This document shows positions 21,613-37,626 of a DNA stretch of 64,000 nucleotides, one piece after another (the stretch's first letter is position 1; the number at the start of each line of letters is the position of its first letter). The notes beneath the pieces were generated by a model. It saw only the letters and a list, made by a program, of their open reading frames with translations. It searched no databases and was not told where the DNA came from. Source of the stretch: Alteromonas aestuariivivens (lineage in GTDB: Bacteria; Pseudomonadota; Gammaproteobacteria; Enterobacterales; Alteromonadaceae); assembly GCF_003367475.1 (NCBI RefSeq), contig NZ_QRHA01000007.1, positions 62,001 to 126,000 on the forward strand, in the 5' to 3' direction. Made by a program: the position numbers and the translations under genes.

Positions 21613-22242
21613 CTATCTTTGCTCTTCTAATTTATTCGTTATTTTTTCTATTTGCTCAGCTTTTGATGCTACATCACCAGCGGTATTCAACCCCTCAATA
21701 ACTTTCATGCCATTTGTTGCACTTGAAGCATTTTTGCCAGCGACCATTTCAATACCCTTATCGATTGTTCCCGCAACTTTCTGACAATCTGAAGAACACC
21801 CCAGTGTACTTGCTGTAGCTTCTAGAGGGCCTTCGGGTGTGTTTCGATTATTTTTACCTGTTTCATTATTCCACGCATCTTTAATCTTATTGGCACCATT
21901 CTCAAATGTATATTTGGAGTCATGGATAAGGTACAAACCTCCTGCCATCGATAAAGAGCCTAGAACTTTAGATCCTGCTAATAGATCTGCTGCTCCATAA
22001 GCTACACCGACGGTCCCAGTAAGAGGTTCTCCTACTGAACCTGCAACACTTAAAGCTCCTATTCCTAAGTTCTTCCACTCATCAAAAGATTCAGGAATAC
22101 GACCAGTAGGATCTGTATAGCGATAAGGGTTATTGTTAGCATATGCATATCTGTTAAAGCTATGTACATCACGAAATCCGATAGGATCATTTGAATAGAA
22201 GCGACCTATGACGGGATCATAGTATCGTGCCTGCATATACAT
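21613..22242 (-). CDS. Orphan Rhs C-terminal tip, putative toxin B
   Basis: The 209-residue ORF starts with the last 48 residues of an Rhs core (MYMQARYYDPVIGRFYSNDP to NPYRYTDPTGR) and continues into a variable tip. The tip has a long Gly/Ala-rich hydrophobic stretch at about residues 60-106 and a charged helical C-terminus. In Rhs systems the tip is the toxin delivered into neighbours. The hydrophobic stretch plus a membrane-type partner hints at a membrane target, but no toxin family is recognised. It has its own ATG but no visible strong ribosome site, and it lacks the Rhs shell needed for delivery. Confidence 0.65.
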   Translation of the reverse strand: MYMQARYYDPVIGRFYSNDPIGFRDVHSFNRYAYANNNPYRYTDPTGRIPESFDEWKNLGIGALSVAGSVGEPLTGTVGVAYGAADLLAGSKVLGSLSMAGGLYLIHDSKYTFENGANKIKDAWNNETGKNNRNTPEGPLEATASTLGCSSDCQKVAGTIDKGIEMVAGKNASSATNGMKVIEGLNTAGDVASKAEQIEKITNKLEEQR

Positions 22243-22265
22243 TAATCGACACTACGATCCACTGT
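22184..22265 (-). repeat. Rhs core-end direct repeat, copy 2
   Basis: Second copy of the block, spanning the start of tip B and about 23 bases upstream. It differs from copy 1 at only a few positions (for example GACCTATGAC for GACCAATGAC on the + strand). Confidence 0.85.
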
Positions 22266-22364
22266 ATCACTTATAAAAATTCAAATAATACAGTTGGTTA
22301 TAAGTCTAGCTTATCTTTTTGCAGTCAATTCATAGAATGTGATGTTTTCAGGTAGATATTTAAC

Positions 22365-22398
22365 AAAAAAGCCCCACTTCATTGAAGGGCGGGGCTTT
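22365..22398 (-). terminator. Terminator after Rhs immunity gene A
   Basis: On the minus strand AAAGCCCCGCCCTTCAAT faces GAAGTGGGGCTTTTTT, a strong hairpin with a T-run 18 bases after the immunity gene A stop. With flanking TTTGGATTCAAA it is a near duplicate of the element at 21339. Confidence 0.87.
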
Positions 22399-22415
22399 GG
22401 ATTCAAAAACTTAAT

Positions 22416-22721
22416 CTATATAAATTTCAATAACACTATCCCTAAAATAAAAAATATATATTCAATAAAAATTAGCCATTTGAGTTCCTTCATTTCTTTA
22501 GCAATTTTGATTAGTTGAAATACTGTAATCACTATGAATATAACTAAAATAACTAACATAATAGCCATTACTGTTATTTGCGGTGAAGCTCCAGCACTTC
22601 CTCCTAACGCGTTAATGCTCTTTCCAACTAGGGAAGAGATCCTGTCATCAAAGATTAGGAAAAATGAACATAATATCTGCGTCACAATCAATTTAATGAA
22701 GCTCATTGGTATTTTAACCAT
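22416..22721 (-). CDS. Three-helix membrane protein, likely immunity A
   Basis: The 101-residue AT-rich gene encodes three hydrophobic segments: about residues 8-24 (FIKLIVTQILCSFFLIF), 49-72 (ITVMAIMLVILVIFIVITVF) and 79-100 (LKWLIFIEYIFFILGIVLL). It starts eight bases after the stop of tip A and is followed by a terminator. By position it should neutralise tip A. No known family is recognised; codon use and base composition differ from the housekeeping genes nearby. Confidence 0.55.
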   Translation of the reverse strand: MVKIPMSFIKLIVTQILCSFFLIFDDRISSLVGKSINALGGSAGASPQITVMAIMLVILVIFIVITVFQLIKIAKEMKELKWLIFIEYIFFILGIVLLKFI

Positions 22722-22729
22722 TACTTTTC

Positions 22730-23272
22730 CTAGTCAATTAGTTCATCTTTTAGTTTTTGAGGCGTGTTTATAGGATCATCCTTTGGTGTATTTACTCCTC
22801 CAGCATTGATCACCGACTCAACGGTATCAGCACAATTATCTGTTACATCCCAAGTTTGTTCAGGATCTTTCAGTAAAGTATCAGCAAAATCGTCAGCTGC
22901 ATTTTCATCTGGTAAATCTAAGTCGATTACAATATCTGCATCCCTACCATAAAACTCTTTATCTTGTTCGTAAGTTTTAAAGTTAGCTTCAGACTTCCAA
23001 GGCACCTGTTTAGTAGGAAATTTACTAATATATTTGGGATTCTTTCCTTCAGTCTGTATTGAAACATGCCCGAAAGAACTGTCATTACCGGGCGTCGCTG
23101 TTGGCCCTTTGTTCCAAATATATACTTTAGATTCACCTGCTGGGTCGGTGTATTTATAAGGATTATTCGCAACATAAGAATACCTGTTAAATGTATCGAC
23201 CTCTCCCGTAAACCCAACAGGGTCATTACTATAGAAACGACCTATGACTGGATCATAGTATCGTGCCTGCAT
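22730..23272 (-). CDS. Orphan Rhs C-terminal tip, putative papain-like toxin A
   Basis: From ATG 23272 the 180-residue ORF has the Rhs core end (MQARYYDPVIGRFYSNDPVG to NNPYKYTDPAGE) and a tip of about 130 residues. The tip holds FGHVSIQTEG with His69 and, later, TDNCADTVESVINAGG with Cys147. A His before the Cys in such settings is the order seen in circularly permuted NlpC/P60-like papain folds. A peptidase, amidase or acyl-hydrolase toxin is therefore possible; this is inference. The frame is open back to 23362, but the extra residues do not look like Rhs. Confidence 0.65.
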   Translation of the reverse strand: MQARYYDPVIGRFYSNDPVGFTGEVDTFNRYSYVANNPYKYTDPAGESKVYIWNKGPTATPGNDSSFGHVSIQTEGKNPKYISKFPTKQVPWKSEANFKTYEQDKEFYGRDADIVIDLDLPDENAADDFADTLLKDPEQTWDVTDNCADTVESVINAGGVNTPKDDPINTPQKLKDELID

Positions 23273-23275
23273 ATA
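23221..23275 (-). repeat. Rhs core-end direct repeat, copy 3
   Basis: Third copy, about 55 bases. Likeness stops at the ATG of tip A, so unlike copies 1 and 2 the upstream 24 bases are not shared. This marks the outer edge of the array. Confidence 0.8.
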
Positions 23276-23398
23276 AAGTGGACTTAATAATCTTCTTATT
23301 GATAAGGCTTGCAGCCTGATCTCACAGTTGGCACCGATCTCAAATCCAATGTCGTTGTACAAAACTTGCCGGATTCAAGACAGCTCAATTATCCATTT

Positions 23399-24420: not shown

Positions 24421-25476
24421 GTGTCACTTGATTTGTTACATCAGTTAAACCAAGCCGCCCTGCAGCGTATTTTGGTTCTGGACGGCGCCATGGGCACCAT
24501 GATCCAGCGTCACAAGCTCGACGAAGCCGCATACCGGGGCGAGCAGTTCGCCAACTGGCACTGCGATGTTAAAGGTAACAACGATTTGCTGGCCATCACC
24601 CAACCGAAAATCATTTACGATATTCATTGTGCGTATCTTGAAGCCGGTGCCGATATCATTGAAACCAATACCTTTAATGCAACCACCATTTCCATGGCCG
24701 ATTACGACATGCAGGCCCATTCGCGGGACATCAACCTGGCCGCTGCCAGGCTGGCTCGCAAAGCAGCGGATGAATTTACCCGCCGTACACCGGAAAAGCC
24801 CCGTTATGTGGCAGGAGTATTGGGGCCGACCAACCGAACCGCTTCCATATCGCCGGATGTAAATGACCCGGGTAAGCGCAATGTTACCTTCGACCAACTG
24901 GTAGAAGCCTATGTTGAGTCCTGCGAAGCGCTGATTGAAGGTGGCAGTGACTTGATTCTGGTGGAAACCATTTTCGATACACTGAACGCCAAAGCCGCAG
25001 TGTTTGCTGTCGATGTTGTGTTTGAAAAGCTTGGTAAGCACTTACCGGTGATGATTTCCGGTACCATAACCGATGCCTCCGGCAGAACGTTGTCAGGGCA
25101 GACGGCCGAAGCCTTCTATTACTCTTTGCGCCATATTGCGCCGTTTTCATTCGGCCTGAACTGTGCGCTTGGCCCTGATTTGCTGCGCCAGTATGTTGAT
25201 GAAGTCTCGAATGTAGCGGAAACCCTGGTGTCGGCACACCCGAATGCCGGGTTGCCAAACGAATTTGGCGAATACGACCTCGAAGCCGATGAGATGGCAG
25301 CGCACGTCAAAGAATGGGCGCAGTCGGGGCTGGTCAATATTGTGGGTGGCTGCTGTGGCTCTACGCCGGAACACATCAAAGCGATTGCCGACGCGGTTGC
25401 GGGCATTGCACCTCGCAGTGTGCCGCACTTTGAGCCTAAAATGCGCCTTTCCGGGCTGGAACCCTTTGTACACTAA
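24421..25476 (+). CDS. metH: Methionine synthase, homocysteine-binding part (split MetH)
   Basis: This 351-residue protein is the first domain of cobalamin-dependent methionine synthase. It has [23 protein letters not shown] at the N-terminus, the zinc Cys in FGLNCALGP and the paired Cys in [14 protein letters not shown]. It ends at TAA 25474-25476, where the linker to the pterin domain would be. Downstream the same frame resumes at GTG 25486. It begins three bases after metA, so metA and both metH parts look like one MetJ-controlled unit. Confidence 0.92.
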
Positions 25477-25485
25477 GGTGGTATT

Positions 25486-28110
25486 GTGACAGCTGAGTTT
25501 TCTAAATTTATCAATATCGGCGAACGGACCAACGTAACCGGTTCGGCGGTATTCAAGCGCCTTATTCTGAATGGCGACTATGAAACTGCACTGGATGTAG
25601 CCCGTCAGCAGGTTGAAAATGGTGCCCAGATCATCGACATCAACATGGATGAAGCCATGTTGGACTCGGTTGCCGCCATGCGCACGTTTTTAAACCTGAT
25701 AGCGTCTGAGCCTGATATTTGCCGTGTTCCAATCATGATTGATTCTTCCAAATGGGAAGTCATTGAGGAAGGGTTGAAGTGCGTTCAGGGCAAAGCCATC
25801 GTAAACTCCATCAGCCTTAAGGAAGGCGAAGAAGCCTTTGTGCACCATGCCCGATTGATTAAGCGATATGGCGCGGCAGCGGTGGTGATGGCGTTTGATG
25901 AAACCGGTCAGGCCGACACCCAGGCCCGCAAGGTGGAAATTTGCCAGCGTAGCTATCGGATCCTCACTGAGCAGGTAGGGTTTGCGCCGGAAGATATCAT
26001 TTTTGACCCGAATATCTTTGCTGTCGCAACCGGTATTGAAGAGCACAACAACTATGCGGTGGACTTTATAGAGGCCACCCGCATCATCCGCCAGACCTGC
26101 CCGCACTGCCACGTTTCCGGTGGGCTCTCGAATATTTCATTTTCGTTCCGTGGTAACAACCCGGTGCGCGAAGCCATGCACTCAGTCTTCCTGTATCACG
26201 CCATTCGTGCCGGGCTGGATATGGCAATTGTGAATGCCGGCCAGTTGGAAGTGTATGACGAGATCCCGGCAGCGCTCAGAGAAGCAGTTGAAGATGTGAT
26301 CCTCAACCGCCGGGATGATGCCACTGAGCGCTTGCTGGAAATTGCACCCAACTATCAGGGCGACGGAAAGGCGGCCGCAGCGGAAGATTTGAGCTGGCGC
26401 GAACTGCCGGTAAACAAGCGCCTGGAACATGCGCTTGTTAAAGGGATCACCGATTACATTGTCGATGACACGGAAGAAGCACGCCTGGCGGCAGAGAAAC
26501 CGCTACACGTGATTGAAGGCCCGCTGATGGACGGCATGAACGTGGTTGGCGACCTGTTTGGTGAAGGCAAGATGTTCCTGCCGCAGGTGGTTAAATCTGC
26601 CCGTGTGATGAAGAAAGCCGTGGCTCATCTTCAGCCTTTTATTGAGGCCGAAAAGTCCGGTGATGCCCGCAGCAACGGCAAGATTCTGCTTGCCACTGTG
26701 AAAGGTGACGTACACGATATCGGTAAAAACATTGTTGGTGTGGTGCTGCAGTGCAATAACTTTGAAGTGGTGGACATGGGCGTAATGGTGCCGTGTGCGG
26801 CCATTCTGCAAAAGGCCCGAGAAGAACAGGTTGACATGATTGGCCTGTCGGGTCTGATCACACCGTCACTGGACGAAATGGTACACGTTGCCAAAGAGAT
26901 GGAACGGGAAGGGTTTGATTTACCGCTGCTGATTGGCGGCGCTACCACATCGAAAGCCCACACAGCGGTTAAAATTGAGCAGAATTATCATGCGCCAGTG
27001 GCGTATGTACCGAATGCCAGCCGTGCTGTAGGCGTGTGTCAGAAATTGCTCAACCCGCAATCCCGTGCTGAATTTGCTCAGGTGCTGAGTAAAGAGTACG
27101 ACACGGTGCGGGAGCAGCACGCCAGAAAGCAGCCACGCTCACGCCCGGTTTCATTACAGGAAGCACGGGACAATGGCTTTGTGGCAAAATCGAAGTATGT
27201 GCCTACGGTTCCGGCCCAGCCAGGGGTCACACCGGTTAGTGCCAGCATTTCGGTATTGCGTGACTACATCGACTGGACGCCGTTTTTCCTGACCTGGTCG
27301 CTGGCGGGCAAGTTTCCACGAATTCTAGATGATGAAGTGGTTGGGCAGCAGGCCAGAGAACTGTACGCTGACGCCAACGCAATGTTGGATAAACTGGTAG
27401 CTGAAGGCGGCCTGGAAGCCAAAGGGGTGATTGGGTTGTTCCCAGCCAACCGAAGTGGCGACGACATTGAAATTTATGATTCGGAAGCTCGTGAACAGAT
27501 CATTGGGGTTGCCCATCACCTGCGGCAGCAAACATTGAAAGAGAAGTTTGCCAATTATTGTCTTGCCGATTTTATTGCCGACAAGCGCAGTGGAGTGCCC
27601 GACTACGTAGGGGCCTTTGCAGTCACCGCAGGTATTGGCGAGGATGAACTGGCTGAGGCCTACAATAAGGCGGGTGACGATTACAACGCCATCATGGTGA
27701 AAGCCGTGGCCGATCGTCTGGCTGAAGCTTTTGCCGAATATCTGCACCAGCAGGTGCGCAAGGTCTATTGGGGGTATGCACCGGATGAGAGCCTCGACAA
27801 TGACGCGCTGATCAGGGAAAAATACCAGGGCATTCGCCCTGCACCGGGTTACGCCGCATGCCCAGAGCATACCGAAAAACAGCTGATATGGGATTTACTC
27901 TCGGTGGAGCAACACACCGGTATGAGCCTCACCGAAAGCTACGCCATGTGGCCCGGGGCATCAGTATCCGGCTGGTATTTCGCGCATCCGGAAAGCCGCT
28001 ATTTTGCGGTGGCAAAAATTCAGCCCGATCAGGTTGAGGATTATGCCAAACGCAAAGGGTGGGAGCTGGATGAAGCAGAAAAATGGCTGGCTCCCAATCT
28101 CAGTGACTGA
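25486..28110 (+). CDS. metH: Methionine synthase, folate/B12/activation part (split MetH)
   Basis: The 874-residue product contains the pterin-binding domain ([41 protein letters not shown]). It is followed by the cap and cobalamin domains with the B12-ligand motif [10 protein letters not shown] and the AdoMet reactivation domain ([12 protein letters not shown] near the end). It starts at GTG 25486 with AAGGTGG immediately after the preceding stop. Its frame is the same as the upstream part, so readthrough would give one protein of about 1229 residues, close to the E. coli MetH length as I recall it. Confidence 0.93.
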
Positions 28111-31292: not shown

Positions 31293-33320
31293 ATGAAAAG
31301 TACGATTTTTGGAGTGGTGGCACTCGCTTGTTTGAATCTGCAGACAGTTGCGCACGCGGAGTTGGTTCGTCCAAACCTGCCAGCCCCTATCAGTTCAAAC
31401 TTTAAAAATTCACTGATATACACTGCACAGGTAAAGCAAGGCAGCGGAAGCTGGCAGACACTCTACGTCAAACGGACGGAGTCTCAGGATGAGTTGATGA
31501 GTTCCAATAACGGCGGTATTTACAAAAACCGACAGTTTCATTTTACCCCCCTTTCGTTTGACCCTGCTGAGGGGGCTCTGACCATACGGATTACCAAGGA
31601 CCCGCAGGATATTCCGGAATCGGTTTCCTCAAATGCGAGTAACGTCGAGGTAGTAAATGCCGATTCAGGTCCGGTATTTATTGACGCCAATACGGTGGAA
31701 TTTACTCTGAATGAACCCAAGTATGTGATGGTGAATTTTGACGTTAATAGCAACAAAAACGTGAATTCCGCCAACGGACTCTCGGTTATCAAATATCCAT
31801 TGGCGATATTTGCAGACCCCGACGACAGCGATCTTGTTGAACCCGTTGCTTCTTCAGGTCAGACCAAGCTGGTTTATTCCAGCACCGTCACTCATCAGCA
31901 GATGCAGGACGCTGACATTATCGTGTTTAGAGGGGGATTCCACGATGTTAAAAATCACCCTGCTGCGGGGGCCATTCCGGCCAATAATAATAAAATAATC
32001 TGGCTGCACCCTGAGGCCCTGGTTACAGGGCACATAGAGCGAGCGGGCGGCGGACTGGGTGATGATACCCTCATTTACGGGCGCGGTGTTTTGTATCAGG
32101 GCGACTTTCGTAATGATCCCAGTAATCCCTCTGTTGGTCCTTATTGGTCACCGAACTGGAAAAACGTCGTGCCTGTGCCGGATATGTTTGAAGCTATCAT
32201 TGCGGGGGATCGGGCCACCATCCGGGGGATCATCGTTGCCGATACCATGTGGCATGGTATTGTTACCCGCACCGATTCGACCATTTCCCGCGTCAAACTT
32301 TGGGGCTGGCACGGTAATAACGACGCGTTCCGTCCCAGTGACGGCTCTCTGGTTGAATACAATTTTATGCGCGCGGTGGATGATGCCTTATACAGCAAAG
32401 ACATAACGGTGAACAATAACCTGATTTACCAAAGCTACAATGGCGCCGTGCTGACCTGTGGTTGGGAGAATGTAGAAGATTCCGGCGGTACAGTTTTCAA
32501 CAACAATATTATTTATCGTCCGGAATGGGGTGGTCTGGGTGAAAACAATGGCATTATGGTTTCGCAAATTGGGCCTTACGCCGAATGTAAAGACATCACT
32601 TTCAACAATACACAAATATACGGTGATATAGCGGGTATCACCAATCTCAAGGAATCCAGCCGATTGAGTCAGGCTAATTACGACCCGGCCAAGCACCAGG
32701 GGGTGCCTGGGATCCGTAACATTACCTTTAATAACACCACCCTTAATGGCAACCTGTTCGATAAAAGCCGTATTGACCCAACGTCAAATATCGTAATTGA
32801 GAATGTCGAATTTAATAATCTGGTGGTGACGGGGTATCAGTCGGGACCCGTGGATAACAGCGATCGTGCTTCACTGTTTGATGGCAGCGGTGCACAGGAC
32901 GATACGGTACTGAATCTGTTCACCGGAATTCCTTCCGGCCCTCAGTTTCTTACTCATGGAGTAGCAAGTGAACGCTTACGTTACCGATCGTCAACCGATG
33001 ACTTCATTCTGGATTCCGGGGTGGGCACCTGGTTTCAGTGGGATGTGATCCCCGTTGGCAACGGCTGGTTCCGGCTGGAGCATTTGCCAACCGGGAAAGT
33101 TCTGGGGTCTGCCAACGATACCGATGTCGTGCATCTTGCCAATACGACCACGGGTGACACCGTAGAGTGGATGTATCAGGACGAAGGTGAATGGGGGCGC
33201 CTGATTCATCGCAAGACCGGGCTTCGCATGCACATGCAGGAGGACGATACGCGGTTTATTCTGGGCTCCAACAGCTGGGAAGGAAACCGCACCAAATGGA
33301 AATTTGAAGCTGCAAACTAG
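31293..33320 (+). CDS. Secreted right-handed beta-helix protein, GH49-like
   Basis: The 675-residue protein has a signal peptide ending near TVAHA (residue 22) and an N-terminal beta domain. A long repeat region with Asn/Val/Ile rungs (FNNTQIYGD, FNNTTLNGN, FNNLVVTG) is typical of a parallel beta-helix. A C-terminal domain (about residues 550-675) with GNGWFRLEHLPTGKVLG and LIHRKTGLRMHM resembles a ricin-type sugar-binding trefoil. Asp344, Asp363 and Asp364 (NNDAFR, VDDALY) have the spacing I recall for the catalytic Asp of GH49 dextranases. A polysaccharide hydrolase is likely; the substrate is unknown. Confidence 0.6.
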   Translation: MKSTIFGVVALACLNLQTVAHAELVRPNLPAPISSNFKNSLIYTAQVKQGSGSWQTLYVKRTESQDELMSSNNGGIYKNRQFHFTPLSFDPAEGALTIRITKDPQDIPESVSSNASNVEVVNADSGPVFIDANTVEFTLNEPKYVMVNFDVNSNKNVNSANGLSVIKYPLAIFADPDDSDLVEPVASSGQTKLVYSSTVTHQQMQDADIIVFRGGFHDVKNHPAAGAIPANNNKIIWLHPEALVTGHIERAGGGLGDDTLIYGRGVLYQGDFRNDPSNPSVGPYWSPNWKNVVPVPDMFEAIIAGDRATIRGIIVADTMWHGIVTRTDSTISRVKLWGWHGNNDAFRPSDGSLVEYNFMRAVDDALYSKDITVNNNLIYQSYNGAVLTCGWENVEDSGGTVFNNNIIYRPEWGGLGENNGIMVSQIGPYAECKDITFNNTQIYGDIAGITNLKESSRLSQANYDPAKHQGVPGIRNITFNNTTLNGNLFDKSRIDPTSNIVIENVEFNNLVVTGYQSGPVDNSDRASLFDGSGAQDDTVLNLFTGIPSGPQFLTHGVASERLRYRSSTDDFILDSGVGTWFQWDVIPVGNGWFRLEHLPTGKVLGSANDTDVVHLANTTTGDTVEWMYQDEGEWGRLIHRKTGLRMHMQEDDTRFILGSNSWEGNRTKWKFEAAN

Positions 33321-33333
33321 CTGCCCGCCTTCA

Positions 33334-33358
33334 GTCGGTGTAATGCTCTTACACCGAC
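33334..33358. terminator. Perfect hairpin between convergent genes
   Basis: GTCGGTGTAA, loop TGCTC, TTACACCGAC: a 10-bp perfect stem. It covers the last codons of the LysR gene on the minus strand and follows the beta-helix gene by 13 bases. No T-run is present on either side, so termination is possible but unproven. Confidence 0.5.
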
Positions 33359-34302
33359 GACATATCTGTGACCATCACTGAACTGGACAGCTTATCCTGG
33401 GTGATTTGCCGAATCAGGCTCGCCAGTTCGCGAAAAAACGTTCTGGCCGGGGCGGTATTCCGCCACGCCAGCAAATGCTGCCGGACAATCGGCATATCGG
33501 CCAGTTCGCATACGTGAAGTGCCTCAGGGTCGTGCAGTTCAGAATGCACGTATAAGCCGGGTAAGAACGCCACGCCCATGCCCATAACCACCATTTGACG
33601 CAAAGTATCCAGACTTGTGCCTTCATAGTCGCGGTCGATTTTTACGCCCAATTGGGTACATATTTCCTGTACCTGATAGTGAAAGTGATGGCGATCTTCC
33701 AGTGTGAGCACCTTTTCCCCGCGAATTTTCTCCGGATCAATATAACTGTCACCGGCCAACGGGTGGTCTGAGGGCATAACAAATTTTAACGGCTCCAGAA
33801 ACAAAGGTTGTACCTGGATCTGGCTGCTTTTGCTGGATAAAGGTGACAGAATTAAATCATATTCACCGGCCAACAGACCTTGCTGAAGGTTGGCCGGCGC
33901 CGCCTCCCGTACATAGAATTTCAGCCCGGGCTTCAGACGGTGAATTTCGGGTAAAATATGTGGCAGAAGATAGGGGCCCAGAGTGGGTGGTATGCCGAGC
34001 CGGTAGGTGGTATTTTCACCTTCTGATAACGAGCGCGCTTCTTCTATGAATCGTAATGAGGCACCGAGCATGTCTTCGGCACTATGCAGTAAAGCCTGAC
34101 CCTGCGGAGACAAAAATGTTCCGGAGCGTGAACGTTCAAACAGGGTCAGCCCGAGGCTGGTTTCCAGCGCATTGATTTGGGCAGTTAGTGTGGGTTGGCT
34201 TATGCCAAGTAGTTGCGCGGCCCGGCGAAAATTGAGGTGTTTTGCTACGGTCATAAAGTAGCGAATTTGATTTAGTGATGGCATTTTGCCGGTGTGTTGC
34301 AT
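33349..34302 (-). CDS. OxyR-like LysR regulator without the peroxidatic Cys
   Basis: The 317-residue LysR-type regulator has an N-terminal winged helix (LNQIRYFMTVAKHLNFRRAAQLLGISQPTLTAQI) and a substrate domain close to OxyR (GTSLDTLRQMVVMGMGVAFLPGLYV). The segment corresponding to the E. coli OxyR redox site reads EDRHHFHYQVQEIC. Cys199 is replaced by His206, while the resolving Cys is kept as Cys215. It therefore should not sense peroxide the usual way. ATG 34302 has GAGG eight bases upstream; the frame is open to 34338. It is divergent from the carbonic anhydrase genes and probably controls them. Confidence 0.85.
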   Translation of the reverse strand: MQHTGKMPSLNQIRYFMTVAKHLNFRRAAQLLGISQPTLTAQINALETSLGLTLFERSRSGTFLSPQGQALLHSAEDMLGASLRFIEEARSLSEGENTTYRLGIPPTLGPYLLPHILPEIHRLKPGLKFYVREAAPANLQQGLLAGEYDLILSPLSSKSSQIQVQPLFLEPLKFVMPSDHPLAGDSYIDPEKIRGEKVLTLEDRHHFHYQVQEICTQLGVKIDRDYEGTSLDTLRQMVVMGMGVAFLPGLYVHSELHDPEALHVCELADMPIVRQHLLAWRNTAPARTFFRELASLIRQITQDKLSSSVMVTDMSSV

Positions 34303-34342
34303 TACGAGGACCTCATATACTCGGAGGGTAAGTATCACTTTA

Positions 34343-34394
34343 ATAGCTAAAGGCTATCACCAATATGCAATAAAATCTATAAAGCTATCAGAGG
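34343..34394 (+). promoter_or_regulatory. OxyR-like operator between lysR and carbonic anhydrase 1
   Basis: ATAG-N7-CTAT at 34343-34357 is followed, after a half-degenerate site, by CTATAAAGCTATCAGAG (34377-34393). ATAG-N7-CTAT repeats are the OxyR-type recognition pattern. The same arrangement and the CTATAAA/CTATCAGAG end recur before the second carbonic anhydrase gene. It lies in the divergent space, so it could also serve autoregulation. Confidence 0.7.
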
Positions 34395-34450
34395 GGCCAT
34401 CTATAAAAATTGAAGGTGCTCGCCCTCAAAACTAACTCGAGGAAAAGTGT

Positions 34451-35092
34451 ATGGACCATGTAATCACTGGCGTAAGCAAGTTTCAAAAAGATGTCTATCC
34501 AGGCAAAAAAGCGGCCTTTCAGAAACTTGCCAGTGGCCAAAACCCTGAGGTGTTGTTTATTACCTGTTCAGACTCGCGGATTGATCCAAATCTGGTTACC
34601 CAGACTGAGCCTGGCGAGTTGTTCATATGTCGTAATGCCGGCAACATAGTGCCGCCGCACAGCAACCAGACCGGAGGTATGACAGCGTCTATTGAGTTTG
34701 CCGTAGCCGCTCTGGGCGTGAAGCACATTGTGCTATGCGGGCATACTGACTGTGGCGCTATGAAAGGCGCGCTGGACCCGGATTCTCTGGAGGGTTTACC
34801 ACACGTGAAAGAATGGCTGGGCCATTGCCGCAGTGCCACCGAAGTACTGCGTGAAAAGCATGGTGAACTGGGGTGTCAGCACCTGGAAGCATTGACTCAG
34901 GAGAATGTACTGCAGCAGTTACAACATCTTAAAACCCACCCTGCAGTCGCCGCAAAACTGGCCACCGGGCAGGTTCAGTTGCATGGCTGGGTGTATGACA
35001 TTGGAACTGGAAAAATGCTTTGTTTCAGTGACCAAAGTAATGGATTTGAAGCCATGGAAAGTGTTTACAAAGAAGGTAAACTTCGCACTTAG
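34451..35092 (+). CDS. Beta-carbonic anhydrase 1
   Basis: Carbonic anhydrase interconverts CO2 and bicarbonate. The 213-residue protein has the beta-class zinc ligands Cys39 (CSDSRID, with the Asp-Arg dyad), His98 and Cys101 (CGHTDCGAMKG). It is very close to the second copy 200 bases downstream; both start with MxHVI(S/T)GV and share most of the sequence. The start ATG 34451 follows GAGGAAAAGTGT. Lack of a signal peptide implies cytoplasm. Confidence 0.95.
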   Translation: MDHVITGVSKFQKDVYPGKKAAFQKLASGQNPEVLFITCSDSRIDPNLVTQTEPGELFICRNAGNIVPPHSNQTGGMTASIEFAVAALGVKHIVLCGHTDCGAMKGALDPDSLEGLPHVKEWLGHCRSATEVLREKHGELGCQHLEALTQENVLQQLQHLKTHPAVAAKLATGQVQLHGWVYDIGTGKMLCFSDQSNGFEAMESVYKEGKLRT

Positions 35093-35189
35093 TGACTTTT
35101 CTGTTCGCAATTTTTTGCAACGAAGGTGGCAGGATTACCCTGCCAGACAAATTTTTGACTCGAATCCCACCCTTGTAGTGATCAATTTG

Positions 35190-35242
35190 ATAGTTAAATG
35201 CTATCTCGACAATGTATATTTTTCTATAAATCTATCAGAGAC
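35190..35242 (+). promoter_or_regulatory. Second copy of the OxyR-like operator
   Basis: ATAG-N7-CTAT at 35190-35204, then CTATAAATCTATCAGAG at 35224-35240, with the same spacings as the element at 34343. The two elements agree at nearly all of these motif bases but differ in between, suggesting conserved protein contacts after a promoter-plus-gene duplication. Confidence 0.7.
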
Positions 35243-35298
35243 ACTGATGTTCAATCGAATCTTAAACTTATGTTAACAATTATAATTTCGGAGGTTCC

Positions 35299-35943
35299 AT
35301 GGAACATGTCATTTCTGGCGTCGCTAAATTCCAAGAGGAAGTGTTTCCAGGCAAGAAGGCTACATTCGCGAAGCTTGCAAACGGCCAAAGCCCGGAAGTC
35401 TTGTTTATCACCTGTGCTGATTCTCGTATCGACCCGAATCTGGTAACCCAGACAGGCCCGGGTGATTTGTTTATCTGCCGTAACGCGGGCAACATTGTAC
35501 CGCCACACAGCAACCAGACCGGAGGCATGACAGCTTCCATTGAGTTTGCTGTTGCGGCTCTGGGTGTGAGTCACATAGTGGTGTGCGGGCATACCGACTG
35601 TGGTGCGATGAAAGGTGCGCTTAACCCTCAGGGACTGGATGCATTGCCACATGTTAAAGAATGGCTGGGTCACTGCCGGGTTGCCACTGAAGTGGTGAAA
35701 GAGCGTTGTGGTGAACTGAATCATTCCCACCTGGATGAGGTAACCCGTGAAAACGTGGTTCAACAACTTCAGCACCTGCGTACTCACCCTGCGGTGGCGG
35801 CCAAGATTGCCACTGGTCAGGTAAAACTGCATGGCTGGGTTTATGACATCGAGAAAGGCGAAATTCTATGCTTCGATGAAGCTTCTCAAAGTTTCAACCC
35901 GATGGACGAGGTTTATGCGAAGCAGCAACTTGCTTCTGCTTAG
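35299..35943 (+). CDS. Beta-carbonic anhydrase 2
   Basis: The 214-residue paralogue of the preceding gene has zinc ligands Cys39 (CADSRID), His98 and Cys101 (CGHTDCGAMKG). Differences cluster in surface regions (for example NPQGLDALPHVKEW). It has its own copy of the operator upstream and GGAGG before ATG 35299. Thirty-three bases after it begins the SulP transporter, so it probably supplies or uses the bicarbonate that transporter moves. Confidence 0.95.
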   Translation: MEHVISGVAKFQEEVFPGKKATFAKLANGQSPEVLFITCADSRIDPNLVTQTGPGDLFICRNAGNIVPPHSNQTGGMTASIEFAVAALGVSHIVVCGHTDCGAMKGALNPQGLDALPHVKEWLGHCRVATEVVKERCGELNHSHLDEVTRENVVQQLQHLRTHPAVAAKIATGQVKLHGWVYDIEKGEILCFDEASQSFNPMDEVYAKQQLASA

Positions 35944-35976
35944 TTCTGCATTGCATTCCAAATCAGGAGAAGGTTC

Positions 35977-37626
35977 ATGATGAAATTGGATTTGTCCAAT
36001 CTGCGTGGTGACATTACCGGTGGGGTAACCGCCGGCGTTGTCGCCTTGCCGCTGGCTCTGGCGTTGGGCGTCGCCTCAGGTCTGGGCCCTATGGCTGGCC
36101 TTTATGGTGCTATCGCAGTAGGTTTTTTTGCTGCATTGTTTGGCGGAACGCCATCCCAGATTTCTGGCCCCACCGGCCCCATGGTGGTGGTTCTGGCAGG
36201 CTTGTTTGCCAGCTTGTCAGGTGATGCTTCGCTGATATTCACGGCTGTAATGTTGGCCGGATTATTTCAGATTCTGTTTGGCTTCCTGGGCATCGGTCAA
36301 TACATCCGACTTGTTCCGTATCCGGTAATATCCGGGTTTATGACCGGTATCGGGGCCATCATAATCATATTGCAGCTCAGCCCATTGCTGGGGCATGACT
36401 CACCAAGCGGCACCATAGGTGCTTTAAGCTATTTGCCCACCGCTCTGTCAAATATTGATTATGCGACATTGGGTTTGGGAATTGGCTCATTAATTATTGC
36501 CCTGAAGTGGCCTCCAGCTCTGGGTAAATATATACCAGGTCCTCTGGCCGCATTGATCATCGGCACTCTTGTCGCACTGACAATGTCAAATATACCGGTT
36601 CTGGGAGACATTCCAACAGGGCTTCCTAGCCTGCATATGCCAGTGTTTGAACAGTCTATGTTCTGGTTGGTGCTGGAAGCAGCGTTTATTTTGGCACTGC
36701 TGGGGGCGATAGACAGCCTGCTGACCTCTCTGGTAGCCGATAACATGACCCGAACCCGTCATGACAGTAAAAAGGAATTGATTGGTCAGGGGATCGGCAA
36801 CACCGTAGCTGGCCTGATTGGCGGCATTGCCGGCGCCGGGGCGACCATGCGTACTGTGGTGAATATCCGCAGTGGAGGTAAGCAGCGCTTGTCGGGAATG
36901 ATCCACGCTCTGGTTCTGCTGGCGGTGGTTCTGGGGTTGAGCCCTCTGGCGGCCAATATCCCTCATGCGGTACTGGCGGGCATTTTGGTGAAAGTGGGTC
37001 TGGACATCATCGACTGGAGTTACATTAAGCGCGCTCACCAAGGGCCTCGTTGGGATTTTGCCTTGATGGTTCTTGTGCTGGGTCTTACCGTATTTGTTGA
37101 CTTGATTACCGCTGTTGGCGTTGGTGTTGTGCTTGCGGCCTTGGCTTACGTGAGACAGGTTGCACATCTTCAAATTGAAGAACTGAAGAAAATTCCAGAA
37201 ACGCTCAATGATCCGGAAGAAAATGCTCTGCTTGCCAAAGCCAAGGGCAAGGTCAACATCTTCAGTTTTGGCGGCCCTTTAAGCTTTGGAGCGGCCGCAG
37301 ACCTTGGTCACCATGTGCGGGAGAAAGTGAAACCGGGCTCTCAAGTTCTGATACTGGACTTTGCCAGAGTACCGGCCATGGATGTTTCAGCGGCGATGGC
37401 AGTGGAAAATGTCACAGCCGATGCCATTGCTGCAGGTCGCACACTGTTTATCTGTGCAGCGAGTAAAGAAGTGCAGCAAGTGCTCGACGGTATTAACGCA
37501 CATCAGTCCGGGGTTCAGGTTTTTGAAACGCGTCATCAGGCGTTGCACAAAGCCCTGGAGGTGATTGACTCAAAGAAGTCGGATAAAGCCAGCGCCGTTA
37601 GCGGTGAAATGGCTCAGGCCTCATAA
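35977..37626 (+). CDS. SulP-family anion (probably bicarbonate) transporter
   Basis: The 549-residue SulP/SLC26 protein has the N-terminal signature DITGGVTAGVVALPLALALGVASG, the GPTGPM motif, about 12 membrane segments, and a C-terminal STAS domain (about residues 425-530, QVLILDFARVPAMDVSAAMAVE). SulP proteins carry sulfate, bicarbonate or dicarboxylates. Its place behind two carbonic anhydrase genes favours bicarbonate, as in BicA-type systems; this is inference. AGGAGAAGG precedes ATG 35977. Confidence 0.88.
   Translation: MMKLDLSNLRGDITGGVTAGVVALPLALALGVASGLGPMAGLYGAIAVGFFAALFGGTPSQISGPTGPMVVVLAGLFASLSGDASLIFTAVMLAGLFQILFGFLGIGQYIRLVPYPVISGFMTGIGAIIIILQLSPLLGHDSPSGTIGALSYLPTALSNIDYATLGLGIGSLIIALKWPPALGKYIPGPLAALIIGTLVALTMSNIPVLGDIPTGLPSLHMPVFEQSMFWLVLEAAFILALLGAIDSLLTSLVADNMTRTRHDSKKELIGQGIGNTVAGLIGGIAGAGATMRTVVNIRSGGKQRLSGMIHALVLLAVVLGLSPLAANIPHAVLAGILVKVGLDIIDWSYIKRAHQGPRWDFALMVLVLGLTVFVDLITAVGVGVVLAALAYVRQVAHLQIEELKKIPETLNDPEENALLAKAKGKVNIFSFGGPLSFGAAADLGHHVREKVKPGSQVLILDFARVPAMDVSAAMAVENVTADAIAAGRTLFICAASKEVQQVLDGINAHQSGVQVFETRHQALHKALEVIDSKKSDKASAVSGEMAQAS

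Follow-up and report, generated by a model that had tools for sequence, protein, structure and literature searches.

In a 64-kb window of contig NZ_QRHA01000007.1 of Alteromonas aestuariivivens (the whole stretch of DNA that was analyzed, to whose positions all coordinates refer), a LysR-type regulator gene lies beside two beta-carbonic anhydrase (CA) genes, CA1 and CA2, and a SulP transporter gene. Our comparative analysis indicates that this regulator is probably a non-peroxidatic member of the OxyR clade serving inorganic-carbon (perhaps pH or Na+) homeostasis, which would act through a two-part operator to activate CA1 and the CA2-SulP unit. A previous sequence-only reading of this DNA had suggested an OxyR-fold regulator reassigned to inorganic carbon or pH. 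That suggestion is supported by the conserved synteny, the exchange of beta-CA for iota-CA, the presence of the operator at distant CA genes, the loss of the peroxide pocket and the separate clade of the regulator. The divergent orientation of the regulator gene relative to the two CA genes and the SulP gene, described in the same reading, was confirmed at the level of the open reading frames (ORFs; Table 1).

The same reading had noted that Cys199 of OxyR is replaced by His while the other cysteine is kept, and the alignment with E. coli OxyR agrees, giving His206 and Cys215 at the two positions. Elsewhere in the alignment, Pro136 corresponds to Thr129, His208 to Arg201, Thr107 to Thr100 and Arg274 to Arg266. 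The alignment was extended to a family of 91 proteins, comprising the window regulator, 80 proteins from a named collection and 10 further ones; where E. coli OxyR has Cys199, 66 of them have His, 23 Leu, 2 Gln and none Cys, and the equivalent of Cys208 is Cys in all 91. According to a figure legend in PMC7038661, the peroxide environment includes Thr129, Thr100 and Cys199, and a passage of PMC2881104 situates Arg266 near Cys199. These positions were compared between 43 family representatives and 26 Cys199-bearing OxyR proteins, the latter chosen by similarity to the window regulator. All 26 OxyR proteins have Cys199, with Thr (24) or Ser (2) at position 129. The family representatives show the changes Thr129 to Pro (41/43), Arg201 to His (39/43), Glu225 to Asp (43/43) and Ile268 to His (42/43), and they retain Arg266 (43/43), His198 (42/43) and Thr100 (41/43, with Ser in the other two).

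By both sequence and fold, the best Protein Data Bank matches of the regulator are OxyR proteins. Its AlphaFold model, with a mean predicted local distance difference test score (pLDDT) of 87.6, matches the OxyR chain 6g1d_B with Z 24.7 and a root-mean-square deviation (rmsd) of 9.8 over 300 aligned positions, and the reduced E. coli OxyR domain 1i69_B with Z 23.9 and rmsd 2.1 over 205. The core of the recognition helix, SQPTL, is common to the regulator and OxyR. On the NCBIfam equivalog model for OxyR the regulator scored 178 bits, below the cut-off of 329; this cut-off is narrow, and only 1 of 14 control genomes passes it. Among 29 diverse sequences, 44 of the 56 invariant columns lie past residue 100, in the ligand domain.

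The phylogeny was inferred from 92 proteins, including 43 family members, 26 OxyR proteins, 12 CbbR-like proteins (all under the cut-off of the CbbR model) and, as the only CynR, that of E. coli. With OxyR, CynR and CbbR thus represented, as the sequence-only reading had proposed, the regulator falls in a clade of its own beside, and not among, the Cys199 OxyR proteins: the family group (support 100/99) and the Cys199 OxyR group (100/99) together form a joint group supported at 98/98. Since the tree was midpoint-rooted for drawing, the term clade depends here on taking CbbR and CynR as the outgroup. Membership of the regulator among CynR-like or CbbR-like proteins, considered because those LysR proteins also adjoin CA or CO2 genes, was rejected, as the tree places both outside the joint group and the CbbR-like proteins form a separate clade. 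When the Cys199-less sisters described below were added, the family was still recovered as a single group (95/100; 94% of bootstrap trees) and the backbone of the larger group was not resolved; the Cys199 proteins require two changes on the best tree and one change in 30% of the bootstrap trees. The genome also encodes a second OxyR-like protein (L015), which has both cysteines at the canonical spacing and groups with the Cys199 OxyR proteins on a long branch. The possibility that the genome had lost OxyR altogether was rejected on these grounds.

The genomic surroundings of the regulator were analyzed in the best 80 of 143 relatives obtained from one degenerate-pattern scan, and a CA or SulP gene is found on the divergent side in all 80 loci. 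The CA slot next to the regulator is occupied by a beta-CA in 64 loci, an iota-CA in six and a CaMKII_AD protein in three; the remaining seven have SulP on the divergent side. In four of these (L100, L103, L104 and L105) SulP is directly beside the regulator, with a CA beyond it in L105; L052 has the CA farther away, and L099 has a diverged CA-like frame in addition to SulP. In L053 (3800-5000), from Alteromonas lipotrueiana, stops interrupt what is left of the adjacent CA; between this remnant and the regulator is a region that resembles a tandem array, as judged by eye from repeated translated peptides. SulP was found in 76 of the 80 loci and was not visible in the stretch covered in the other four. 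In 13 of the 80 loci there are two or more CA-SulP pairs, separated by a SulP of a second type, so the CA-CA-SulP order of the window could represent such an array minus one SulP.

The six iota-CA genes (L108, L109, L111, L114, L115 and L123, all from marine gammaproteobacterial bins) are located between the regulator and SulP. The iota-CA model NF047901 matches those of L108 and L109 at 1e-55 and 8e-60, which is under its equivalog cut-off of 350 bits, and the iota-CA chain 7c5x matches L108 at 9e-76; the remaining four resemble that of L108 at 80-85%. The three CaMKII_AD proteins, all in Luminiphilus (L112:2443-2811, L121:4298-4666 and L125:4389-4757), are perhaps short iota-CAs, the case being weaker than for the six: 7c5x matched the one protein tested at 3e-6. 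By eye, a gamma-CA-like hexapeptide protein is also present past SulP in L121 and L125.

At the level of the genus, the regulator was detected at E 1e-40 or better in 34 of 36 genomes, that of A. aestuariivivens included. The two genomes lacking it (G011 and G014) have one CA each, which is 26-30% identical to CA1/CA2 and has no perfect operator site in the surrounding 3.4 kb, and the BicA model scores none of their SulP proteins higher than 209 bits; in all seven tested genomes that have the regulator, a SulP reaches 530-557 bits. This amounts to two joint losses. Genomes G084 and G178 each have one relative at 45-47% and one match at 31-32%, and G294 has two relatives, both at 45-47%.

CA1 and CA2 both keep the C-x-D-S-R and H-x2-C motifs and match Pfam PF00484 at 7e-51 and 2e-51. 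They are the only Pro_CA matches in the genome, which is rated 99.83% complete. The SulP protein matches the BicA model at 9e-167 (555.8 bits, under the equivalog cut-off of 880) and the solved chain 6ki1, which we take to be Synechocystis BicA, at 4e-113, and it probably imports bicarbonate. The genome has another SulP elsewhere, a weaker match to the BicA model (208 bits).

The motif ATAG-N7-CTAT, which we take to be the OxyR consensus, had been reported before both CA genes and was indeed found at both places (Table 1); the whole window contains four matches. Two minus-strand frames at 21613-23362, with RHS-type tips (ARYYDPVIGRFYSNDP) and differing C-terminal ends, contain one match each and resemble RHS polymorphic-toxin tails by eye. 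The conservation of the motif was assessed in 300-base stretches at the regulator start of the window and 79 loci (n = 80; L079 lies too near a contig end). A perfect site is present in 55 of the 80 and a site with at most one mismatch in 72; among 265 like stretches at ORFs of at least 200 amino acids in the same loci (unchecked as genes, with CA and SulP excluded), two have a perfect site and 14 a site with one mismatch, and dinucleotide shuffles give 0.45% perfect sites. Because the 80 loci are related, these counts do not represent 80 independent events; the N7 core varies freely among related loci. An anchored alignment of 31 representatives extends the site to TGATAG-N7-CTATCA and reveals a second CTATCA at +42, 31 bp past the first and towards the CA gene; every base of this element is common to 18-26 of the 31 sequences. 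Such a two-part operator is the usual layout for LysR regulators.

Of the 18 CA genes that do not adjoin the regulator, 17 possess a perfect site themselves; only the distant CA of L105 lacks one. Across the genome, ATAG-N7-CTATC has 11 matches against 12 for the reversed control and is thus uninformative alone, and its matches outside the locus lie inside ORFs and are without the second element. The composite of both parts has exact matches only at the two CA promoters and one more match at three mismatches, compared with three matches genome-wide for the reversed-control composite. As the exact composite is limited to the two CA promoters, the regulon looks local. The occurrence of perfect sites before some Cys199 OxyR genes (counts below) is consistent with related DNA-binding specificities of the family and the Cys199 OxyR proteins.

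In the mechanism that we propose, the regulator would bind TGATAG-N7-CTATCA and the second CTATCA 31 bp further on, before each CA copy, and would activate, and not repress, CA1 and the CA2-SulP unit. The trigger would be a drop in the supply of CO2/bicarbonate or a linked change in internal pH. The signal may be read in the former peroxide pocket, at the residues assigned to it by alignment (Arg274, His205, His208, His276 and Thr107); we favour the binding of bicarbonate or protons there, the equivalents of Arg266 and His198 being retained and two more His being near-invariant.

Relatives lacking Cys199 also exist outside the family. Six plasmid-borne relatives were examined among 30 matches listed from a plasmid search, which found relatives at 37-42% identity, and these six are alphaproteobacterial; Cys199 is present in none of the six, Cys208 in five and a perfect ATAG-N7-CTAT beside the gene in all six, and three of the five annotated ones carry the name "hydrogen peroxide-inducible genes activator". 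A further 30 loci comprised 14 Cys199-less proteins outside the family, 10 proteins with Cys199 and six family members. The 14 are from Pseudomonadota outside the class of the window; Cys208 is kept in 10, Pro takes the place of Thr129 in 13, and a perfect site lies no more than 200 bases away in eight. Among the resulting 20 sisters (L191-L203, L205, L207, L209, L211, L214, L216 and L220), 11 have NhaA, an Mrp antiporter or TerC on the divergent side: Mrp subunits in L192, L197, L199, L200 and L201 (a universal stress protein intervening in L192 and L197), NhaA in L194, L195 and L207, and also in L193, where a CA and a small gene come first, and TerC in L202 and L216. In L198 a universal stress protein stands alone on that side. 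The handling of Na+, H+ and HCO3- is thus a pattern in about half of the sisters and no rule. It is conceivable, at somewhat less than even probability in our judgement, that OxyR proteins without Cys199 make up a second, widespread branch within the OxyR clade. Their pocket would read bicarbonate, CO2 or pH in place of peroxide, and by way of the original OxyR operator they would drive genes for CA, BicA-type transporters, Na+/H+ antiporters and TerC. This branch would extend over marine Gammaproteobacteria, Alphaproteobacteria and some Myxococcota/Planctomycetota bins, and annotation calls some of its members peroxide activators.

Several observations weigh against a regulator of inorganic carbon as proposed here. 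The invariant Cys215 would not be needed by a non-redox sensor. Two family members at 45-47% identity (L127 and L129) have no CA or SulP within the 3.9 kb covered; they may be a paralogue with a different target, and by eye they adjoin an aspartyl-protease-like gene. The second part of the operator varies: it is CTATCA at nine, CTATAA at seven and altered at one of the 17 distant-CA sites. Eight of the 20 sisters (L191, L196, L203, L205, L209, L211, L214 and L220) have other or no recognised families beside them. The site is shared by some Cys199-bearing OxyR genes (a perfect upstream site in 5 of 26, and in none of 10 of another set within 200 bases), so the OxyR of the same genome might also act on the locus. 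Lastly, CA, SulP and OxyR are absent from the main text of three Alteromonas papers (PMC9723591, PMC11748131 and PMC12021255), two of them on the partial pressure of CO2 (pCO2).

The main rival explanation, to which we give a low probability, is a one-cysteine peroxide sensor in which Cys215 would form a sulfenic acid, as reported for the OxyR of Deinococcus radiodurans (DrOxyR), the CA and SulP genes belonging to a redox regulon. A passage of PMC2225504 reports that DrOxyR senses peroxide through a single Cys, C210, and the mutagenic primer given there encodes FDQVMHW(A)ADAGFT, which by eye aligns with the Cys208 stretch of E. coli OxyR; the sensing Cys is thus at the position kept in the family. 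The invariance of Cys215 and the retention of Thr100 and Arg266 fit this explanation. However, Thr129 and Arg201 are replaced, five of the 20 Cys199-less sisters (L196, L198, L205, L216 and L220) also lack Cys at the 208 position, and the neighbours are CA and/or SulP genes in all 80 loci. DrOxyR, according to PMC2225504, positively regulates catalase and resistance to peroxide. A degenerate, signal-less OxyR paralogue that binds DNA constitutively and adjoins CA genes by chance would also account for the lost sensing cysteine, but it is very improbable in view of the conserved operator and linkage and of the concentration of invariant columns in the ligand domain.

The remaining alternatives concern the nature of the signal. 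The regulator might primarily respond to pH or sodium, with CA and SulP induced as alkaline, Na+-rich conditions lower CO2; this overlaps with the reading preferred here and is possible, if rather doubtful. E. coli alx (TerC) and nhaA respond to alkali and sodium, and the sisters that adjoin NhaA, Mrp and TerC genes leave pH or Na+ as possible signals, yet inside the family the neighbours are CA and SulP and not antiporters. We consider it unlikely that a metabolite of carbon status (2-oxoglutarate or 2-phosphoglycolate, as for the CbbR-type CcmR) is sensed instead of CO2, bicarbonate or pH. CcmR with 2-oxoglutarate is among the fold matches of the regulator (5y2v_A, Z 20.8, rmsd 6.8, 301 aligned). 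According to PMC3401165, CcmR acts on the CO2-concentrating genes of cyanobacteria. Against this, the family lies outside the CbbR clade, and the conserved shift of the pocket to Arg and His would suit a small anion or protons, with a metabolite still being compatible.

Several known systems can be compared with the window locus. With OxyR the regulator shares the fold, the larger tree group, the SQPTL core and the ATAG-N7-CTAT sites, but it differs in lacking Cys199, Thr129 and Arg201, in its model score below the cut-off and in its CA/SulP neighbours. The E. coli cynR/cynT-cynS-cynX locus likewise pairs a beta-CA gene with a divergent LysR gene, and CynT shares 45-47% identity with the CAs of six relatives of the window; however, CynR is outside the OxyR and family group, and the window operon has SulP and no cyanase. 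CbbR, CcmR and CmpR are also LysR regulators of inorganic-carbon genes with a similar fold, but they belong to the separate clade. Their known ligands are carbon metabolites. The window SulP resembles BicA, the cyanobacterial SulP bicarbonate transporter, in its matches to the BicA model and 6ki1, and differs from it in scoring under the equivalog cut-off and in standing beside an OxyR-clade regulator.

The coordinates of the locus are presented in Table 1. The closest named orthologues, at 74-77%, are from Alteromonas, Aestuariibacter and Salinimonas, and the genome itself is in the Alteromonas group. Convergent on the 3' end of the regulator gene is a gene for a 675-amino-acid protein with a signal-like start (31293-33320), which has no Pfam match at 1e-3. 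Farther away, at 24421-28110, a cobalamin-dependent methionine synthase is apparently split into two adjacent frames of 351 and 874 amino acids, by eye.

Table 1. Positions of the regulator, its predicted operators and the divergent CA and SulP genes in the window.
Feature	Position	Strand	Remarks
LysR-type regulator, OxyR clade, without peroxidatic Cys	33349..34302	-	317 amino acids from ATG 34302; GTG 34338 is a possible alternative start
His206 codon (E. coli OxyR Cys199 position)	33685..33687	-	OxyR alignment
Cys215 codon (E. coli OxyR Cys208 position)	33658..33660	-	91/91 in family
Pro136 codon (Thr129 position, peroxide pocket)	33895..33897	-	Alignment; role of Thr129 from PMC7038661 figure legend
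Arg274-x-His276 codons	33475..33483	-	Arg266 retained; added His in 42/43 representatives, I/V/M/L in OxyR
Operator 1, ATAG-N7-CTAT (predicted)	34343..34357	+	Between regulator and CA1
Operator 1 second part, CTAT-N4-CTATCA	34377..34390	+	CTATCA 31 bp from first; probable activation site, by analogy with LysR-type regulators generally
Beta-carbonic anhydrase 1 (CA1)	34451..35092	+	ORF; Pfam, motifs
Operator 2, ATAG-N7-CTAT (predicted)	35190..35204	+	Upstream of CA2
Operator 2 second part, CTAT-N4-CTATCA	35224..35237	+	Same composite as operator 1
Beta-carbonic anhydrase 2 (CA2)	35299..35943	+	74% identical to CA1
SulP transporter with STAS domain, probable bicarbonate importer	35977..37626	+	Closest solved chain 6ki1

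To our knowledge, inorganic-carbon sensing by heterotrophic marine bacteria is poorly understood, and our searches of the open-access literature yielded no description of an OxyR-type regulator that lacks Cys199 and controls CA or SulP. We also considered whether the locus is connected with CO2-dependent changes of catalase in Alteromonas; term searches of the main texts of the three Alteromonas papers found nothing on CA, SulP or OxyR. A passage of PMC4757865 mentions one carbonic anhydrase, without stating which, among the genes raised in seawater. Studies of pCO2 and of helpers of Prochlorococcus make use of Alteromonas, and if the proposed function is correct, this genus would gain a defined candidate regulator together with its operator. 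The best-studied bacterial redox switch would then have a non-redox branch sensing the state of CO2, bicarbonate and pH, and some of the annotations as "hydrogen peroxide-inducible genes activator" would be misnamed. Moreover, the exchange of a beta-CA for a metal-free iota-CA under one regulator would favour a physiological role of the bacterial iota-CA.

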